Positions 12,593 through 38,006 of a DNA stretch of 64,000 bases are shown here, piece after piece. The stretch is from NCBI RefSeq assembly GCF_024609325.1, contig NZ_JANHMQ010000001.1, positions 372,001-436,000 of the forward strand, read 5' to 3'. A model generated the notes under the pieces. That model was given only the letters and a program-made list of their open reading frames with translations, did not search any database and had not been told where the DNA came from. Origin of the DNA: Geothrix fuzhouensis. Its GTDB lineage: Bacteria > Acidobacteriota > Holophagae > Holophagales > Holophagaceae. The position numbers and the translations under genes were made by a program. How positions within the stretch are numbered: the first letter of the stretch is position 1; every line of letters begins with the position of its first letter.

Positions 12593-13024
12593 ATGGTGGT
12601 CGAGCCGATTCCTGCGGGGTACCACACGGTCACGCCTTACCTGGTCGTCGCGGACGGGGAGGCGTTCCTGACCTTCCTCCGGGCGGCCTTCCAGGGGGAG
12701 GAACTGAGCCGCACTGTCCGCCCCGATGGGTCGATCGCCAATGCGGAGATCCGCATGGGTGATTCCATGGTGATGGTGGCCCAGGCCAAGGAGCCCTGGA
12801 AGCCCATGCCTACAGGTTTCTATCTCTATGTGCCCGATACCGACGCCACCTATGCGGCCGCCTTGGCGGCCGGTGGGGCCTCACTCCTGGAACCTTCGGA
12901 CCAGTTCTATGGGGACCGCAACGCTGGAGTGCAGGATCCCTGGGGCAACAACTGGTGGATCGCCACCCACATCGAGGATGTGGACGAGGCCGAGATCCAG
13001 CGGCGGATGGCGGCCCGGGGTTGA
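12593..13024 (+). CDS. VOC-superfamily protein, PhnB/glyoxalase-like
   Basis: A 143-residue protein of the vicinal oxygen chelate fold (paired beta-alpha-beta-beta-beta modules). It opens with IPAGYHTVTPYLVVADGEAF and closes with FYGDRNAGVQDPWGNNWWIAT, both standard in PhnB-type VOC proteins; the final Asp-Pro-Trp-Gly strand is the most conserved part. Such proteins range from antibiotic-binding to metal-dependent enzymes, so no reaction is assigned. The start at 12593 has GGAGGTGG directly adjacent; the neighbouring in-frame GTG at 12596 is better spaced and would shorten the protein by one residue. It may be expressed separately from ptrB because a stem-loop lies between them. Confidence 0.8.
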   Translation: MVVEPIPAGYHTVTPYLVVADGEAFLTFLRAAFQGEELSRTVRPDGSIANAEIRMGDSMVMVAQAKEPWKPMPTGFYLYVPDTDATYAAALAAGGASLLEPSDQFYGDRNAGVQDPWGNNWWIATHIEDVDEAEIQRRMAARG

Positions 13025-13094
13025 GTCCCGGGCCCAGTCCCGGGACAATGGACAAGCGCGGCCTTCCGCCGCGCTTTGTCATGTCTGGGAAATC

Positions 13095-14663
13095 ATGGTT
13101 CTTATTGAAGAAATCCAGCGGCGGCGCACCTTCGCCATCATCAGCCATCCCGACGCCGGCAAGACCACGCTGACGGAGAAACTGCTGCTCTACGGCGGCG
13201 CCATCGACCGGGCCGGCTCCGTGAAGGCCCGGGAGGGCGGCGCGGCGGCCCACTCGGACTGGATGAGCATCGAACAGGAGCGTGGCATCAGCGTCACCTC
13301 GGCGGCCATGCAGTTCGAGTACCTGGGCCGGGCCATCAACCTGCTCGACACGCCGGGTCACCAGGATTTCAGCGAGGACACCTATCGGGCCCTCACAGCG
13401 GCGGATTCGGTCGTGATGCTCCTGGACTGTGCCAAGGGTGTGGAAGAGCAGACCAAGAAGCTCTTCCGCGTGGCCAGCGAGCGCAAGCTCCCCATCTTCA
13501 CCTTCGTGAACAAGCTCGACCGCCCCGGCCGTGAGCCCGTGGAGCTCATCGACGAAGTGGAGGAGCTCTTCGGCCTCCACGCCGTGCCTATGACTTGGCC
13601 CATTGGATCCGGCACCGACTTCAAGGGCGTGTACGTGCGCGCCACGGGGCAGATCCAGGTGTTCGAGCGCGCCAAAGCGGGCCGGAAGGCCCGGGTGGCC
13701 GGGCAGGGTGGGCTGGACGATCCCGAGATCGCGGCCCTGCTGACCCCGGCTGAGCTGCAGCAGCTCAAGGACGATGTGGACCTCATGAACCACGTGCTGC
13801 CCGCCTTTGACCGGGAGGCTTTCCTGCGCGGCGAGCAGTCGCCCATGTTCTTCGGCTCGGCCGTGAACAACTTCGGCGTGGCCGAGTTCCTGGAGGAATT
13901 CCTGGAACTGGCGCCCTCGCCCGGCCCGCGCCCTCTCATGAAGGGCGGCGAGGTGGACCCCGAACAGCCCTTCACGGCCTTCGTGTTCAAGGTTCAGGCC
14001 AACATGAACAAGGCTCATCGCGACCGCGTGGCCTTCGCGCGCATCGTGTCCGGGCGGTTCGAGCGGGGCATGGACGCCCTCCACGTGCGCGAGAAGAAAT
14101 CCATCAAGCTGAACTACCCCCACATGTTTTTCGGGCGGGAGCGGCAGATTGTGGACGAGGCCTATCCTGGCGACATCCTGGGACTCATCAACCCCGGCCT
14201 CTTCCGCATCGGGGACGTGCTCAGCGCCGCGGGGCCCATCGAGTTCCATGCGGTGCCGCGCTTCTCGCCCGAGCAGTTCGCCTCGGTGCGCTTGGCGGAT
14301 CCTGGTGCTCGCAAGGGTTTTCTCAAGGGCCTAAGCCAGATCGCGGAAGAGGGTGTGGTGCAGGTCTTCTGGCCCAAGGGCGGGGCACCTTTGCCCATCC
14401 TTGGCGCCATCGGCCGCCTCCAGTTCGAGGTGCTCCAGCACCGCCTGAAGGAGGAGTACGCCAGCCCCGTGCTCCTGGAGCCCCGCGCCTTCCAGATGGC
14501 GCGCTGGATCGAGGGCGGCTGGCCCGAACCCAGCCGGTTCTGGGGCGAGCTGGTGGAAGACACCGAGGGCAACCCCGCCATCCTCTTCGAGAACGACTGG
14601 CAGCGAAGGACCACAGCGGAGAAGTCACCAGATCTGAGGTTCCTCGAACATCCAGCCAAATAG
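13095..14663 (+). CDS. prfC: Peptide chain release factor 3
   Basis: GTPase (522 residues) that recycles RF1/RF2 from the ribosome after termination. G-domain motifs: SHPDAGKTTLTE (P-loop) near residue 18, the switch segment QERGISVTSAAM, DTPGHQDF (G3), NKLDR (G4), then domain II/III sequences ending with the RF3-specific LQFEVLQHRLKEEY and an ARWIEGG segment. Length and order match RF3 and not EF-G (about 690 residues). The start MVLIEEI at 13095 matches the usual N-terminus; a second stem-loop (13051-13080) sits just upstream and the ribosome-binding site is weak (GGGA). It converges on fba with a shared bidirectional terminator. Confidence 0.95.
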   Translation: MVLIEEIQRRRTFAIISHPDAGKTTLTEKLLLYGGAIDRAGSVKAREGGAAAHSDWMSIEQERGISVTSAAMQFEYLGRAINLLDTPGHQDFSEDTYRALTAADSVVMLLDCAKGVEEQTKKLFRVASERKLPIFTFVNKLDRPGREPVELIDEVEELFGLHAVPMTWPIGSGTDFKGVYVRATGQIQVFERAKAGRKARVAGQGGLDDPEIAALLTPAELQQLKDDVDLMNHVLPAFDREAFLRGEQSPMFFGSAVNNFGVAEFLEEFLELAPSPGPRPLMKGGEVDPEQPFTAFVFKVQANMNKAHRDRVAFARIVSGRFERGMDALHVREKKSIKLNYPHMFFGRERQIVDEAYPGDILGLINPGLFRIGDVLSAAGPIEFHAVPRFSPEQFASVRLADPGARKGFLKGLSQIAEEGVVQVFWPKGGAPLPILGAIGRLQFEVLQHRLKEEYASPVLLEPRAFQMARWIEGGWPEPSRFWGELVEDTEGNPAILFENDWQRRTTAEKSPDLRFLEHPAK

Positions 14664-30735: not shown

Positions 30736-31875
30736 CTATTTCAGGATCTCCCTGGCGATGACCATGCGCTGGATCTCGCTGGTGCCTTCGTAGATGGTGG
30801 TCACGCGCACGTCCCGGTAGAGCCGCTCGACGGTGTATTCGCGGGAGTAGCCATAGCCGCCGTGGATCTGCACGGCCCGGTCACAGATCCACACGGCGCT
30901 TTCGGTGGTGAACAGCTTGGCGGTGGCGGCCTCCACCGTGCAGGTTCTCCCGGCCCCCTTCAGGGCGGCGGCCCGGTAGACCAGCAAGCGAGCGGCCTGG
31001 AGGCGGGCTTCCATCTCCGCCAGGTAGGTCTGGATCATCTGGTGCTCGCCGATGGGCTTGCCGAAGGAAACGCGGGCCTTCGCGTAGGCCACGCTCTCAT
31101 CCATGGCCCGTTGGGCGATGCCCAGGGCCTGAGCCGAAATGCCGATGCGCCCCCCATCCAAGCCGCCGAAGGCCACCTTCAGGCCGTCGCCGGGCTTGCC
31201 GAGGATGGCGTCCTCGGGCACGAAGGCATCTTCCAGGGCCACCATCACGGTCTTGCTGGAGCGCAGGCCCATCTTCTCTTCGGGCCGGCCCATGATCACG
31301 CCGGGCTGCTCCGCATCGAGAATGAAGGCGCTGATGCCACGCTTCCCCTTGTCTGGGTCCGTGCGGGCCATGGTCACGAAGTACCGGGCCACGCCGCCGT
31401 TGGTGATCCAGGCCTTGGCTCCGTTCAGCCGCCAGCCGCCGTCCACCTTGGTGGCGCGGGTCTTGAGGGCCGCCGCGTCAGAACCGGCATCGGGCTCGGT
31501 GAGCATGAAGCCGCCCAGCACCTCGCCGCTGGCCAGGGGTTTCAAGTATTTCTGTTTCTGCGCCTCAGTGCCGAAGGACAGGATGGGCGCGCAGGCCACG
31601 GAATTGTTCACGCTCATGGCCACGGCCACGGAAGCGTCGGCGTAGGCGACCTGTTCGAGCGCCAGGATGTAGCTCATGAAGTCCACACCCGCGCCACCGT
31701 AGCTTTCCGGCACCGTCATGCCCAGGAAGCCCATCTCGCCCAGCTGCTGCAGGATGTCCTTGGCGAATTCCCCGCTGGCATCGCGGGCCGCCGCGCCCGG
31801 GGCGATCTCCGTTTGGGCGAAGTCCCGGGCGGCTTCGCGGACAGCGGTCTGATCATCGGTGAACATGGGGAACAT
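30736..31875 (-). CDS. Acyl-CoA dehydrogenase, short-chain (butyryl-CoA) type
   Basis: FAD enzyme (379 residues) introducing the 2,3 double bond into acyl-CoA. Signatures: MTVPESYGGAGVDFMSY, GGFMLTEPDAGSDAAAL at the FAD/substrate site, AWITNGGVA, and the C-terminal catalytic base in TTIYEGTSEIQRMV (Glu), with QIHGGYGYSREY before it. The Glu position is that of short/medium-chain enzymes. Residues contacting ETF cannot be judged and no etfAB is adjacent. Start at 31875 (MFPMFTDD), preceded by TGGAG; the second ATG at 31866 is possible. It fits the butyryl-CoA pathway with hbd and crotonase. The 169 bp between it and the next gene hold only GC-rich potential stem-loops. Confidence 0.93.
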   Translation of the reverse strand: MFPMFTDDQTAVREAARDFAQTEIAPGAAARDASGEFAKDILQQLGEMGFLGMTVPESYGGAGVDFMSYILALEQVAYADASVAVAMSVNNSVACAPILSFGTEAQKQKYLKPLASGEVLGGFMLTEPDAGSDAAALKTRATKVDGGWRLNGAKAWITNGGVARYFVTMARTDPDKGKRGISAFILDAEQPGVIMGRPEEKMGLRSSKTVMVALEDAFVPEDAILGKPGDGLKVAFGGLDGGRIGISAQALGIAQRAMDESVAYAKARVSFGKPIGEHQMIQTYLAEMEARLQAARLLVYRAAALKGAGRTCTVEAATAKLFTTESAVWICDRAVQIHGGYGYSREYTVERLYRDVRVTTIYEGTSEIQRMVIAREILK

Positions 31876-32044: not shown

Positions 32045-33190
32045 TTAGCCGTGGATTAGCCAGGCTTCCAGGAGTTTCAGGGAGGCCTTGGCACCTTCCC
32101 ACTTCATCAAGCCGTAGGCCTCGGCGAGCCCACACCACTTGAATTCACTGTGCTCCAGGGGCTCCAGGCGAACCTGAGCCTCGGCGGGGACTTCCATGGA
32201 GAAACAGGTCTCAGTGTTGAATCGGGGTTCCGCGTCCGGGAAGTGCACGATGGTGGGATCCACCCAGAAGCTGTGGGAGAGGCCCAGGGGCCGCAACGTG
32301 CCCGTGAGTCCTGTCTCTTCCCTGAGCTCACGATGAGCGGTCTGCTCGGGCGTTTCTCCGGGCTCCATCATGCCGGTGACGCTCTGCCACCAAAGCCCGT
32401 GCTCGGGGACGCGCAGCATCATGAGGATCTCCGGCCCGTTGGCGGCGTGGCGCCAGGTCATGGCCGACACGCTGCGGCTGGGCTGCCGCACGGGCTGGAG
32501 ATCCAGAGCCAGGTAGGCCGTGAGATGGGCCTGGAGCCGATCCGCGGCCTCGTCCCAGGTAGGGGCACTCGCGCCCAGCAGTGACTGGAGGCTGCACACG
32601 CCCTTATCCGTGAAGCCGCAAGGGGTGATCCAACGGAAGTGATCGAGGTTGGGGCACACGTTGAAGGCAATGCCGTGAGTGGTGATCCAACGGCTGAGGT
32701 GGAGGCCGATGGCGCCAAGCTTCTCGAGGCCTCCACCCTTTCGGTAGGGGGCTGTTTCCACCCAGATTCCCGGCGCGCCCTTGAGGCGATCGGCCATCAC
32801 CCCGAATTCGGCCGCGGTGCGGATCATGGCCTCTTCGAGACCCCGCACCAGACGCCCGACATCCTCCCGACCGCCCCGCAGGTTGCAGATGGGATAGGCG
32901 ACGATCTGGCCGGGCCCGTGGTAGGTCACCTCGCCGCCCCGGTCCGTGCGGTGGACGCTCACGCCTTGCGCAGCGAGGAAGTCGTCGCTCATGTGAATGT
33001 CGGCGGGCGTGGCGTTTCTGCCCAGCGTGAAGACAGGGTCGTGTTCGAGGATCACAAGCTGGTCGGGATTTCCCTCCTGGCTGACATGGGCCGCCAGGGC
33101 CTTCTGCAGGCGGAGTCCGGCGGGGTAGAACACCCGCCCGAAGCGGCGGAGCTGGGCTGGGCGGGAAACAGAGAAACCGACTTCAGACAT
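32045..33190 (-). CDS. lipB: Octanoyl transferase LipB fused to a NUDIX hydrolase domain
   Basis: A 381-residue fusion. Residues 1-230 are LipB, which moves octanoyl from ACP to lipoyl domains: HDPVFTLGRNA, RTDRGGEVTYHGPGQIVAYP, catalytic Lys157 in LEKLGAIGLHLSRWITTHG and catalytic Cys191 in ITPCGFTDKGV. After a short linker (residues 231-245), residues 246-381 form a NUDIX fold with a complete box at 273-295 (GMMEPGETPEQTAHRELR continuing EETGL). The later part (FNTETCFSM, LEHSEFKW, AKASLKLLEAW) resembles NudB, the dihydroneopterin triphosphate pyrophosphatase of folate synthesis. Normal LipB ends near residue 225, and no stop or frameshift separates the parts. The start at 33190 is family-typical; the frame is open 91 codons further upstream but overlaps the divergent kinase. 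No lipA is nearby. Confidence 0.9.
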   Translation of the reverse strand: MSEVGFSVSRPAQLRRFGRVFYPAGLRLQKALAAHVSQEGNPDQLVILEHDPVFTLGRNATPADIHMSDDFLAAQGVSVHRTDRGGEVTYHGPGQIVAYPICNLRGGREDVGRLVRGLEEAMIRTAAEFGVMADRLKGAPGIWVETAPYRKGGGLEKLGAIGLHLSRWITTHGIAFNVCPNLDHFRWITPCGFTDKGVCSLQSLLGASAPTWDEAADRLQAHLTAYLALDLQPVRQPSRSVSAMTWRHAANGPEILMMLRVPEHGLWWQSVTGMMEPGETPEQTAHRELREETGLTGTLRPLGLSHSFWVDPTIVHFPDAEPRFNTETCFSMEVPAEAQVRLEPLEHSEFKWCGLAEAYGLMKWEGAKASLKLLEAWLIHG

Positions 33191-34761: not shown

Positions 34762-35991
34762 ATGGTGAGTGTGATCGTGGTGGGTGGGGGTGCGGCTGGG
34801 CTGGTGGCGGCCTGGCGGGCGGCCTCGCTGGGGCATGTCGTCACGCTGCTGGAGGCCAACGGTCGCCTGGGGGTGAAGCTCCGGATCAGCGGCGGCGGCA
34901 AGTGCAACATCACCCACGCCGGCCCGCCCAAAGCCCTGATGGCGGCCTTTCCCGTGGAGCAGGCCCGCTTCCTGCGGCCGTCGCTGCATGCCTTCGACAA
35001 CCAGGCGGTGCTCGACCTATTGCGCCGGGAGGGCGTGGCGACGTACACCCGCGAGAATGGCCGCGTGTTCCCCCTGGATCGCCCGGGGAGCGCGGCGGCG
35101 GTCGTGGCCGCCTTCGAGACCCTGGCGCATCGGGTGGGTGTGGACGTGCGTACGGGTGTCCGCGTGACGGCGTTGGAGGGCAGGGCGCCCCGCCTGAAGG
35201 CCTTGTGCCTGGGCGACGAGCGGATCACCGCGGATGCCTTCATCCTCGCCACCGGGGGTGCCAGCTATCCGGAGACTGGCACCCGGGGCGAAGTGCTGGG
35301 GTGGCTGAACCAGCTGGGTGTGCCTGTCCAGGCCTGGTTCCCGGCCCTGGCCCCCATCCCCCTGGTGCGCCCCCGTCCCGCCTGGGAGGGCGTGGCCCTG
35401 CGCGATGGCGAGCTGCGTCTGAGCGCGGGGACGGAAGGCCGTCGCCTGGGTGCTTTCGCGGGGGACGTTGTGTTCACGAAGACGGGTATCAGCGGCCCCG
35501 CGGCGTTGGAATTGAGTCAGGCCGTGGAGCGTGCGCGTCGCGCCGGGATGGCGTGGCTCGTCTACGCGTCGATCCGGGATGCACCGGAAGGCGTGGAGAG
35601 GTCGCTCCTGGCGGAAGTTCGCGCCAATCCTCGCCTCCTCGCAGCCACCTGGTTGCAGCGGCATTTGCCGGAACGGCTGGTGGATCCATTGCTGGAGGAA
35701 GCCGGGATCATCCGCAGCCTCATGCTGAAGGATCTCTCGAAGGCCGCCCGGAAAGTGCTGGTGGCCCTGGTCACGGCCTTGCCCCTGGGCGAGCCCCAGC
35801 CGGTGCCCCTGGCCCGGGGCGAGGTGGCCGCGGGTGGCGTGGACCTGACGGCCGTGGATCCTCACACCATGGTCCTGAAGGGGTGGGAGAACCTGCGCGT
35901 CTGCGGCGAATTGCTGGATATCGACGGTCCGGTGGGTGGCTACAACCTCCAGGCGGCCTTCAGCACCGGCTACGTGGCCGGTTCCATCTAG
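34762..35991 (+). CDS. HI0933/BaiN-like NAD(P)/FAD-dependent oxidoreductase
   Basis: A 409-residue flavoprotein. It has the FAD-binding fold IVVGGGAAGLVAAWRAA at the N-terminus, the family-specific RISGGGKCNITH, a TRENGRVFPL segment, ILATGGASYPETGTRG, TKTGISGPAALELSQ, and the C-terminal GGVDLTAVDPHTM and CGELLDIDGPVGGYNLQAAFSTG, which close the flavin site. All are standard for the HI0933 (YhiN/BaiN) family; BaiN acts in bile-acid reduction in gut clostridia, but most homologues have unknown substrates. The ATG at 34762 lacks a strong ribosome-binding site. The preceding 67 bp contain a repeated GCTGACAGC (34699 and 34732). Its stop codon overlaps that of the converging gap paralogue within CTAG. 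Confidence 0.88.
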   Translation: MVSVIVVGGGAAGLVAAWRAASLGHVVTLLEANGRLGVKLRISGGGKCNITHAGPPKALMAAFPVEQARFLRPSLHAFDNQAVLDLLRREGVATYTRENGRVFPLDRPGSAAAVVAAFETLAHRVGVDVRTGVRVTALEGRAPRLKALCLGDERITADAFILATGGASYPETGTRGEVLGWLNQLGVPVQAWFPALAPIPLVRPRPAWEGVALRDGELRLSAGTEGRRLGAFAGDVVFTKTGISGPAALELSQAVERARRAGMAWLVYASIRDAPEGVERSLLAEVRANPRLLAATWLQRHLPERLVDPLLEEAGIIRSLMLKDLSKAARKVLVALVTALPLGEPQPVPLARGEVAAGGVDLTAVDPHTMVLKGWENLRVCGELLDIDGPVGGYNLQAAFSTGYVAGSI

Positions 35992-36998
35992 ATCCGTCCG
36001 GCCAGCTCCACCACCAGGTCGCAGAGCCGCGCGGCATAACCCGTCTCGTTGTCGTGCCAACCGAAGACCTTCACGAAGCGCGGGCCGAGCATCATGGTGA
36101 GGTCCAGGTCCATCAGCACGCTCTCCGGCCGCCCGGTGATGTCGCAGCTGACCGCGTGGGGATGCGCCAAGCCGACGAGATTCCTCCAGTGGCCGGCGGC
36201 CGCGGCTTCGTAGGCGGCGTTCACGGAGGTGGCATCCGCATCGCGGCGGAGGGTGGCCACCAAGTCCACCAGGTTGACGTTGAGGGTGGGCACCCGGAGG
36301 GCCACTCCGTCGAAGGCCCGGGGCAGGCCCGGCATGGCGCGGTGCAGGGCGCCGAAGGCGCTTGAGGTGGTGGGGATGATGCTCTTGAAGGCTGCCCGGG
36401 CCCGGCGGAGGTCCTTGTGGGGCAGGTCTAGCAGGCGTTGGTCGTTGGTGACCACGTGCACCGTGCTCATGCCGGCATGCTCGAGGCCGAAGGCATCGTC
36501 CAGGATCTTCAGCATGGGTGCGGTCGCATGGGCGGTGCAGCTGGCGTTGGAGATCACCCGGTGCAGGCCAGGATCAAGCTCGGCGCCGTTGACCGGGGCG
36601 ATGACCGTGAAATCGGCGTCAGGACTGGGGGCGCTGATGACCACATGGGAGACACTCCCCTTCAGGTGCCGGGCGGCATCGGCCCGGTGCGTGAAGCGTC
36701 CGCTAGCCTCCACCACCAGGCGCGTGGGCGCCGGGAAGGGGATCTCCGCTGGATTGCTGGCATGAAAGAGCGGCACGCGATGGTCGCCCAGCAGGAGGAA
36801 GTCTTGCCCCCCTTCAGTGAAGCCTTCGATGGGCTTGTCACTGGGCCCATGGACGGAATCGTACCGGAGCAGATGGACGAGCTGGTCGATGGGCGCTGGA
36901 TCGTTCACGGCGCCCAGGAGTCCAGGCCGTGTGCCGCCCAGTCGACGCACCAGCAACCGGCCGATGCGGCCCAGGCCATTCAGAGCTAGGGTATTCAT
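35988..36998 (-). CDS. Divergent glyceraldehyde-3-phosphate dehydrogenase paralogue
   Basis: A 336-residue GAPDH homologue lying 3 bp after a canonical gap gene. The Rossmann motif NGLGRIGRLLVRRL and catalytic Cys154 and His181 (TVHVVTNDQ) are kept, and LDLPHKDLRRARAAF is nearly identical to its neighbour. However the catalytic loop reads SNASCTAHATAP where the canonical form is SCTTNC, and the phosphate-site sequence is IPTTSSAFGAL in place of IPTSTGAAKAI. The lost Thr/Asn and Lys positions normally contact substrate phosphate, inorganic phosphate and the nicotinamide. It could act on another phosphorylated aldehyde (for example erythrose 4-phosphate), be non-phosphorylating, or regulate/assemble with the canonical subunit. 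Tandem duplication followed by divergence is the likely origin. It ends overlapping the converging BaiN-like gene. Confidence 0.85.
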   Translation of the reverse strand: MNTLALNGLGRIGRLLVRRLGGTRPGLLGAVNDPAPIDQLVHLLRYDSVHGPSDKPIEGFTEGGQDFLLLGDHRVPLFHASNPAEIPFPAPTRLVVEASGRFTHRADAARHLKGSVSHVVISAPSPDADFTVIAPVNGAELDPGLHRVISNASCTAHATAPMLKILDDAFGLEHAGMSTVHVVTNDQRLLDLPHKDLRRARAAFKSIIPTTSSAFGALHRAMPGLPRAFDGVALRVPTLNVNLVDLVATLRRDADATSVNAAYEAAAAGHWRNLVGLAHPHAVSCDITGRPESVLMDLDLTMMLGPRFVKVFGWHDNETGYAARLCDLVVELAGRI

Positions 36999-37001
36999 CG
37001 G

Positions 37002-38006
37002 CTAGATGCGCTCCAGCACATGCACGCAGAGATCCTTCAAGCGGGCGGCATAACCGAACTCGTTGTCGTACCAGGCGAAGACCTTGACCAGACGGGGCCC
37101 CAGAATCTTCGTGAGGTAGGGATCATAGAGGGTACTGGCGGTCCGTCCTGCCAGGTCCGCACTCACAAGTTCGGCATCGAGAACTTCGAGGTAAGGGGCC
37201 AAGGGGCCGCTGGCAGCGGCTTTGCGGAAGGCCTCCTGCACGGTTGCCAGGGTGGCATCGGATTTGAGGGTGGCGGTGAGGTCCACGATGCTCACGTCGG
37301 GGGTCGGGACTCGAATGGCAAGGCCATCGAGGCGCCCCTTGAGGTGGGGCAGCACCAGCCCGATGGCCTTCGCAGCGCCGGTGCTGGTGGGAATCATGCT
37401 GAGGGCCGCCGCCCGGGCCCGGCGGAGGTCCTTGTGGGGCAGGTCAAGCAGGCGCTGGTCGTTGGTGTAGCTGTGCACCGTGGTCATAAAGCCGTAGTCG
37501 ATGCCGAAGGTGTCATCCATGACCTTCACGACCGGCCCAAGGCAGTTGGTCGTGCAGCTGGCATTGGAGATCACATGTTCGGTGGCTGGGACCAGCGTCG
37601 TTTCGTTCACGCCCATGACCACGGTGCGGTCCGCATCATCGGACGGGGCGCTGATGATCACGTGGCTCACACTGCCTTGAAGGTGGAGGGCGGCACGGTC
37701 GCGCTTGGTGAATTTTCCCGTGCACTCCAGCACCACCTGGGCCCCTTGGGCGCCGAAGGGGATGAGTTGGGGGTCCTTCTCGGCGTAGACGCGGATCCGC
37801 CGGCCATCCAGCACGAGGTAGTTCCCGTCGGAAGCCACGGGGAAGTCCGCGGGGCCGTGGACGGAGTCGTATTTCATGAGATGGGCGAGCGTGTGGGCGT
37901 CGGTGAGGTCGTTCACGGCCACCACGCGGACATGGGGAACCTTCATCAGGTGTCTCAGCACCAGCCGTCCGATCCGCCCCAACCCATTGATGGCCACCTT
38001 TTTCAT
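37002..38006 (-). CDS. gap: Glyceraldehyde-3-phosphate dehydrogenase, type I
   Basis: The canonical glycolytic enzyme (334 residues) oxidising glyceraldehyde 3-phosphate to 1,3-bisphosphoglycerate with NAD. Visible: NGLGRIGRLVLRHL, AVNDLTD (acidic residue at the end of strand two, NAD preference), FTKRD, catalytic Cys151 in SNASCTTNCLGP, His178 in TTVHSYTNDQ, IPTSTGAAKAI, and WYDNEFGYAARL at the C-terminus. It is the first gene of a two-gene unit with the altered paralogue downstream. The start at 38006 begins directly with the Rossmann strand. The gene upstream on the same strand is a small Fis-type protein 120 bp away, with a terminator between them. Confidence 0.95.
   Translation of the reverse strand: MKKVAINGLGRIGRLVLRHLMKVPHVRVVAVNDLTDAHTLAHLMKYDSVHGPADFPVASDGNYLVLDGRRIRVYAEKDPQLIPFGAQGAQVVLECTGKFTKRDRAALHLQGSVSHVIISAPSDDADRTVVMGVNETTLVPATEHVISNASCTTNCLGPVVKVMDDTFGIDYGFMTTVHSYTNDQRLLDLPHKDLRRARAAALSMIPTSTGAAKAIGLVLPHLKGRLDGLAIRVPTPDVSIVDLTATLKSDATLATVQEAFRKAAASGPLAPYLEVLDAELVSADLAGRTASTLYDPYLTKILGPRLVKVFAWYDNEFGYAARLKDLCVHVLERI

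Follow-up and report, generated by a model that had tools for sequence, protein, structure and literature searches.

An in-frame fusion of the octanoyltransferase LipB with a NudB-like NUDIX domain in Geothrix fuzhouensis and other Acidobacteriota

The minus strand of the window, that is, of the whole 64,000-nucleotide stretch of Geothrix fuzhouensis DNA that was analysed, contains a gene that encodes an octanoyltransferase (LipB) joined to a NUDIX domain resembling the dihydroneopterin triphosphate (DHNTP) pyrophosphatase NudB. The reading frame extends from 33190 to 32048, is closed by a stop codon at 32045-32047 and translates into 381 residues with no internal stop. The gene, its parts and its conserved downstream neighbour are located as follows.

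32045..33190, minus strand: lipB-NUDIX fusion gene, 381 aa plus stop, ATG at 33190
32516..33190, minus strand: LipB octanoyltransferase part, residues 1-225 (Pfam LplA-B_cat at 25-223; NCBIfam; fold)
32720..32722, minus strand: Lys157, LipB catalytic lysine, invariant in 18/18 aligned fused proteins
32618..32620, minus strand: Cys191, LipB catalytic cysteine, invariant in 18/18 aligned fused proteins
32474..32515, minus strand: short linker, residues 226-239, the gap between both family matches
32048..32473, minus strand: NUDIX part, residues 240-381, NudB-like (Pfam NUDIX at 251-370)
32306..32374, minus strand: Nudix box, residues 273-295, with RExxEE in 74/74 distinct fused frames
32210..32212, minus strand: Glu327, aligned with E. 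coli NudB Glu100, a predicted pterin-ring contact; invariant in 18 fused proteins
32153..32155, minus strand: Glu346, aligned with E. coli NudB Glu117, a metal ligand; invariant in 18 fused proteins
30736..31875, minus strand: acyl-CoA dehydrogenase-like gene (models below their own cut-offs), conserved downstream neighbour outside the fusion

Elsewhere in the window, two tandem glyceraldehyde-3-phosphate dehydrogenase genes occur on the minus strand (35988-38006), one of them scoring above the GAPDH-I cut-off (396 bits) and the other below it (291.7 versus 367.2).

The initial annotation had described a complete LipB that continues in the same frame into an equally complete NUDIX domain, and this architecture is borne out by the uninterrupted frame and by Pfam, which places LplA-B_cat at residues 25-223 (E 1e-40) and NUDIX at residues 251-370 (E 3.1e-17; 63.3 bits for PF00293 against a cut-off of 21.1), both above their curated cut-offs. 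AlphaFold2 likewise returned a confident two-domain model of the whole protein (pLDDT 92.9, pTM 0.89). The residues named at the outset, Lys157, Cys191 and a Nudix box at 273-295, were also recovered as claimed. The box reads G273-x5-E279-x7-R287-E288-xx-E291-E292-x-G294 and, when 18 diverse fused proteins are aligned, these residues prove invariant apart from G294, which at least 90% of the proteins retain. Invariant positions include K157, C191, E279, R287, E288, E291, E292, E327, E346, H347, W352 and W364. The RExxEE core is common to all 74 distinct fused frames and the canonical spacing of the box to 71 of them; in G096, G106 and G287 the box of the LipB-fused domain contains two extra residues. 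Pairwise dN/dS values of the window gene against its relatives range from 0.06 to 0.19 for the LipB half (15 relatives) and from 0.06 to 0.27 for the NUDIX half (14 pairs, the 15th being saturated), and purifying selection thus acts on both halves.

The LipB half exceeds the cut-offs of two NCBIfam models, NF010925 (168.9 bits versus 155) and TIGR00214 (142.3 versus 83.55), and falls below those of the other three of the five LipB models matched. In Foldseek it superimposes on 2qhs (TM 0.91 over the target), a structure of LipB, for which a Cys/Lys catalytic dyad has been described (PMC9307952, in part). Gene order in family f24, in which five genomes carry the fusion, was inspected in four loci (G274 being left out): lipA follows the fusion gene directly in all four, and an E2 acyltransferase gene precedes it in three (L187, L188, L189) and was not found before it in the fourth (L191). 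The same E2-lipB-lipA order also surrounds an unfused lipB (L200). These neighbours support real lipoylation work of the LipB half and say nothing about the NUDIX half. Of 45 Holophagaceae loci, 36 show an acyl-CoA dehydrogenase-like gene downstream of the fusion gene and in the same orientation, 22 of them within 400 bases. In five of the remaining nine, the downstream sequence is shorter than 1.7 kb, and in four (L110-L113) more than 5 kb is present and lacks such a gene.

Relatives with two separate genes divided by a stop codon, named beforehand as the sign of an assembly error, were not found among the Holophagales genomes searched: no stop codon occurs inside the fusion match in any genome of a 77-genome search, and the fusion stands. 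A full-length or nearly full-length match, beginning at query residue 10 or earlier and ending at 371 or later, is present without a stop in 70 of the 77 genomes. Any match at all was obtained in 73, three of which end at a contig end (G022, G343, G309), and the four genomes with no match (G034, G328, G350 and G352) are 77, 84, 89 and 69% complete, respectively. Single-contig genomes such as G033 and G134 are among these 70, and the fusion also occurs in 12 genomes of four other families. An artefact in which a lost stop or a frameshift joined two genes during assembly is refuted by this recurrence, no point was found in its favour, and it can be dismissed almost with certainty.

To the level of the phylum, occurrence was analysed in 297 Acidobacteriota genomes at least 85% complete, using an 18-row profile of the fusion (A1), some rows of which come from the genomes recovered. 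Full-length fused matches were obtained in 41 genomes, with E-values up to 3.7e-135, and are separated by a gap from the LipB-only matches, which begin at 2.2e-97 and grow weaker from there. The host's own family contributes 29 of the 41 (30 were sampled, the remaining one, G309, being cut by a contig end) and the other 12 are distributed among f31 (5), f24 (5), f77 (1) and f39 (1). Since the LipB model matches in 212 of the 297 genomes, fused LipB is the minority form. Two reduced genomes of 1.2 Mb (G202, G327) retain the fusion at 47-48% identity. A search of named genomes with exact eight-residue patterns, a method that finds close relatives only, recovered Geothrix and other Holophagaceae, and none of the 56 plasmid records with a match covers 80% of the query. 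The fusion is an old, conserved pairing in members of the Acidobacteriota. As a separate observation, the reduced Holophagaceae genomes (L108, L109) carry NACG at the LipB catalytic cysteine, as opposed to PCG in the other A1 rows.

Phylogenies of the two halves are compatible both with a single old fusion followed by losses and with several fusions. In the NUDIX tree, the fusion halves of the Holophagaceae form one supported clade (96/94) and those of the other families another (95/89), while a third clade (94/88) gathers three FolP-fused domains, two standalone proteins from f12 and a Bathyarchaeota Nudix protein (L072). When reference proteins are included, E. coli NudB joins the group of FolP-fused and f12 standalone domains on a long branch, and the rows from the reduced genomes (L108, L109) branch separately from the remaining Holophagaceae. 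The NUDIX halves of the LipB fusions do not group with the FolP-fused domains, the f12 standalone proteins or E. coli NudB, and the AU test does not reject their union in a single clade (p-AU 0.502). Fused LipB halves appear in four places of the LipB tree (4 changes), and here also one clade is not rejected (p-AU 0.254).

The likeness of the NUDIX half to NudB, proposed in the initial annotation, holds at the level of nearest relatives. As a single sequence, its best PDB match is NudB (2.5e-9), and a profile of 18 NUDIX halves ranks E. coli NudB first (80.9 bits, 7e-22), followed by a functionally uncharacterised Nudix protein of Listeria (3son, 71.2 bits) and human Ap4A hydrolase (56.7 bits). 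The best NCBIfam match is also the NudB model (NF006961), with 71.3 bits, which does not reach the curated equivalog cut-off of 103. Throughout 27 fusion genomes the LipB-fused domains score between 52 and 80 bits against this model, compared with 101 and 92 bits for the FolP-fused domains of G106 and G096 and 140 and 125 bits for the standalone proteins of G061 and G279; by these scores, the LipB-fused domains are the most diverged from NudB. A check for another nudB in the host genome, suggested beforehand, identified the fused domain as the sole match to the NudB model at E <= 0.001. It is likewise the best match in 25 of the 27 fusion genomes, and is second to the FolP-fused domain in the other two (G096, G106).

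Docking of DHNTP to NudB predicts polar contacts with Arg29, Gln37, Thr40, Tyr91, Glu100, Ser135 and Lys7 and places Phe35, Phe84, Ile85 and Leu87 around the ring, and Glu117 is a metal ligand of the E. coli enzyme (PMC5526541, in part). These positions were compared in 22 distinct aligned rows (18 LipB-fused, 2 FolP-fused and 2 standalone). All 22 share with NudB the metal ligands Glu56, Glu60 and Glu117 and, of the predicted contacts, Arg29, Thr40 and Glu100. Tyr91 is found in the two FolP-fused and the two standalone rows and in 0/18 LipB-fused ones. No row has a lysine directly before the Arg8 column, the NudB stretch of the alignment beginning at residue 8 and the Lys7 column being inferred. 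Position 37 is Gln or Ser and position 35 Phe or Trp; neither Phe84 nor residue 85 is conserved, and each of the 22 rows has Trp in the Ser135 column. Two members added afterwards show further variation: in the FolP-fused domain of G244, Thr40 is replaced by Ser and Glu100 by Gln, so that these two residues are not fixed even in FolP-fused members, and in the standalone protein of G062 Arg29 is replaced by Tyr. In the profile alignment, human Ap4A hydrolase has Lys in place of Thr40 and is gapped at Arg29 and Glu100. Given a score below the cut-off and the loss of two named substrate-binding residues, Lys7 and Tyr91, membership of the LipB-fused domain in NudB proper is not established.

The structural model of the NUDIX half alone is of high confidence (pLDDT 93.3), and Foldseek places this second half on Nudix hydrolases including E. 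coli NudB. Comparison of the model with individual structures gave Z 19.5 for the Ap4A hydrolase 1ktg_A (rmsd 1.7, 133 residues aligned), Z 19.0 for NudB 2o1c_B (rmsd 2.3, 137 aligned) and Z 18.8 for MutT1; the modelled fold, with Z of about 19 for each, does not separate NudB from Ap4A hydrolases or MutT1. A viral structure library returned matches to NUDIX and ligase types only, none of them informative for this question.

Domains of the same NUDIX subfamily are also fused to a folate enzyme. In three Acidobacteriota genomes (G096, G106 and G244) the domain is joined to dihydropteroate synthase (FolP), with Pfam Pterin_bind and NUDIX matched in all three proteins:

L192:5030-6397, plus strand: NUDIX-FolP fusion (Pfam)
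L194:4749-6110, minus strand: NUDIX-FolP fusion (Pfam)
L233:6981-8312, plus strand: NUDIX-FolP fusion (Pfam)

G096 and G106 carry both the FolP-fused and the LipB-fused NUDIX domains, and G244 has no full-length match to the LipB fusion. Over the 297 Acidobacteriota genomes, matches to the subfamily better than 1e-25 comprise 41 LipB-fused, 3 FolP-fused and 3 standalone domains; those of G096, G106, G061 and G279 were part of the search profile and match by construction, and those of G244 and G062 were not. The standalone copies of G061 and G279 lie above the NudB cut-off and that of G062 (64.7 bits) below it. The FolP fusions favour a folate role for the LipB-fused domain. A 2007 paper described most bacterial genomes as lacking the gene for DHNTP pyrophosphatase (PMC1971073, in part), and neither a LipB-NUDIX nor a NUDIX-FolP fusion was found reported in the titles and abstract beginnings searched, a scope outside which most subscription papers fall.

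GTP cyclohydrolase I is above its cut-off in 25 of the 27 fusion genomes (none in G315, a fragment at a contig end in G334) and HPPK is present in 26 (none in G202), while the reduced 1.2 Mb genome G327 keeps both together with the fusion. DHNTP should thus be available as a substrate, since GTP cyclohydrolase I, its maker, and HPPK occur in most fusion genomes. Whether the fusion is there or not, HPPK is found in 39/40 genomes and GTP cyclohydrolase I also in 39/40 (38/40 above the cut-off), the two genome lists differing in 3. Because HPPK and FolE are equally common where the fusion is absent, folate synthesis does not need the fusion, and co-occurrence of folate genes was discarded as a non-discriminating test of the NUDIX role.

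Two observations on these pathway genes are recorded separately. GTP cyclohydrolase I is mostly more divergent in fusion genomes (about 1e-39 to 1e-50 against PF01227; for example L253:10032-10592, minus strand) than in genomes devoid of the fusion (1e-64 to 1e-76), kinship being uncorrected in this comparison; four genomes (G274, G253, G244, G310) have both kinds, and G287 combines the fusion with the usual kind only. Also, in the host genome folK overlaps queF and queC is nearby (L201:8473-9376 and 12792-13589, both minus strand; Pfam HPPK, QueF and QueC), so that genes of folate and queuosine synthesis, which share DHNTP, adjoin.

Juxtaposition of lipB and a NUDIX gene also occurs in Pseudomonadota, with a different type of NUDIX protein. 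In a profile survey of 398 genomes, 382 of which gave a match, and considering the best rows, no match listed covers the whole fusion profile; eight of those listed extend into the NUDIX region, a stop codon intervening in seven. Eleven loci were examined, namely these eight and three chosen for their E-value or long frame, and in ten (L267-L276) a NUDIX gene follows lipB directly, once fused in frame (L270). Two of these NUDIX proteins were scanned and score only 24 and 26 bits against NudB, their best NUDIX model being NtrR, far below its cut-off. NtrR is an ADP-ribose-responsive repressor. As lipB and a NUDIX gene can thus come to adjoin with no NudB involved, any argument from LipB-NUDIX pairing alone is weakened. 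Side features of these loci are a lipA gene upstream in L269 and a trypsin/PDZ protease gene downstream in L267 (Pfam).

From these features we infer both activities, the substrate of the NUDIX half and the reason for the fusion. The preferred reading, offered tentatively and with a confidence somewhat short of even, is that of a bifunctional protein with two predicted activities, octanoyl transfer and pyrophosphate removal from DHNTP, joined for co-expression. The LipB half would transfer octanoate from octanoyl-ACP, via Cys191 with the participation of Lys157, to the lysine of lipoyl domains, and the NUDIX half would be a catalytically intact Nudix hydrolase of NudB type, the two active sites working independently. 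Since octanoyl transfer and the DHNTP step have no metabolite in common, the fusion would most likely ensure that two enzymes of cofactor synthesis are expressed together in a fixed ratio, channelling being less likely. The glycine cleavage system requires both lipoyl and tetrahydrofolate cofactors, and the products of the two halves would meet there as lipoyl-GcvH and tetrahydrofolate, making this system a possible link between lipoylation and pterins. A more specific proposal, that the NUDIX half is the DHNTP pyrophosphatase of these Acidobacteriota and that its fusion to LipB ties together the supplies of both glycine-cleavage cofactors on one polypeptide, the lipoyl group of the H protein and the tetrahydrofolate of the T protein, appears unlikely. 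In G096 and G106, which have a FolP-fused copy and an insertion in the Nudix box, the LipB-fused copy may do something else.

The main rival retains the same protein and changes the substrate: the NUDIX half would hydrolyse another nucleotide, such as Ap4A-like dinucleoside polyphosphates or damaged or excess NTPs, have no relation to folate, and owe its junction with LipB to a chance gene arrangement that was subsequently retained. This is a serious possibility, although one that falls well short of probable. It gains from the tie between Ap4A hydrolases and NudB in fold comparison, from the absence of Tyr91 and of the Lys7 site in the LipB-fused domains, from a published Nudix phylogeny that places NudB itself amid ApnA hydrolases (PMC5389931, in part) and from the Pseudomonadota loci, 10 of 11 of which set a different NUDIX beside lipB, so that the pairing is not tied to one substrate. 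Against it, the profile score of NudB exceeds that of the best Ap4A hydrolase by 24 bits, the human Ap4A hydrolase lacks the three NudB contact residues that are identical in 18/18 LipB-fused rows, and domains of the same subfamily are fused to FolP.

Further alternatives give the NUDIX half other roles. It could be a regulatory or structural domain that binds a pterin or nucleotide, or that stabilises LipB somewhat like the accessory LplB, as its C-terminal position on the LipB fold and the defined packing suggested by the pTM would allow; lipoate ligases have gained the LplB unit (PMC10332631, in part) and some proteins of the Nudix clan are non-enzymatic (PMC5389931, in part). However, a pure scaffold would need neither the metal-binding glutamates, kept in 18/18 fused proteins, nor RExxEE, kept in 74/74 frames, and we regard this role as improbable. 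Clearance of an inhibitory by-product of lipoylation, also raised in the initial annotation, finds no support, given that LipB is not known to produce a nucleotide diphosphate and that the CoA-Nudix motif precedes the box in 0/74 distinct fused frames. FPGG is likewise absent from all 74, and no CoA diphosphatase model figures among the 11 NCBIfam matches of the protein. These motif and model results weigh against cleavage of octanoyl-CoA or CoA to phosphopantetheine products that would feed, or clear, the donor site of LipB, a very remote alternative that the missing motif led us to reject as the main reading. In its favour, octanoyl-CoA is the one diphosphate-containing donor that E. coli LipB reportedly accepts, the enzyme recognising mainly the phosphopantetheine arm (PMC9307952, in part), and an acyl-CoA dehydrogenase-like gene is a frequent downstream neighbour in the Holophagaceae.

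If the preferred reading of a bifunctional, folate-related protein is correct, the NUDIX half could fill a gap in the vitamin B9 pathway of members of the Acidobacteriota. The LipB-NUDIX and NUDIX-FolP fusions point to one NUDIX subfamily as a candidate DHNTP pyrophosphatase in part of this phylum, and the evidence of two fusions makes the assignment directly testable there. Whatever its substrate, a lipoylation enzyme is stably joined to another enzyme in five families, reduced 1.2 Mb genomes included, and naming the protein by the LipB model alone would miss its NUDIX half.

Both domains are known, and the LipB-NUDIX architecture was not found in the literature searched (titles and abstract beginnings). 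In comparison with LipB (TIGR00214; PDB 2qhs, 1w66), the fusion shares the whole catalytic domain, the Cys/Lys dyad, the fold (TM 0.91 and 0.84 over the respective targets) and, in family f24, the lipA and E2 neighbours, and differs in about 155 extra residues that include the NUDIX domain. With NudB/FolQ (NF006961; PDB 2o1c), its best PDB relative, it has in common the Nudix box, the three metal ligands and the predicted contacts Arg29, Thr40 and Glu100, whereas its score stays under the cut-off, the Lys7 site and Tyr91 are missing and the domain is joined to LipB. Asymmetric Ap4A hydrolases (PDB 1ktg, 3u53) have the same fold, with a Z-score tied to that of NudB, but are weaker relatives by profile, the human enzyme being devoid of equivalents of those three contacts. 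The Pseudomonadota lipB-NUDIX pairs resemble the fusion in having NUDIX directly after lipB, once in frame, and differ in NUDIX type and in their low NudB scores. Finally, the NUDIX-FolP proteins contain the same NUDIX subfamily, also joined to a cofactor-synthesis enzyme, although in these the NUDIX domain is N-terminal, the partner is dihydropteroate synthase, the score is closer to NudB and the tree group is a separate one.
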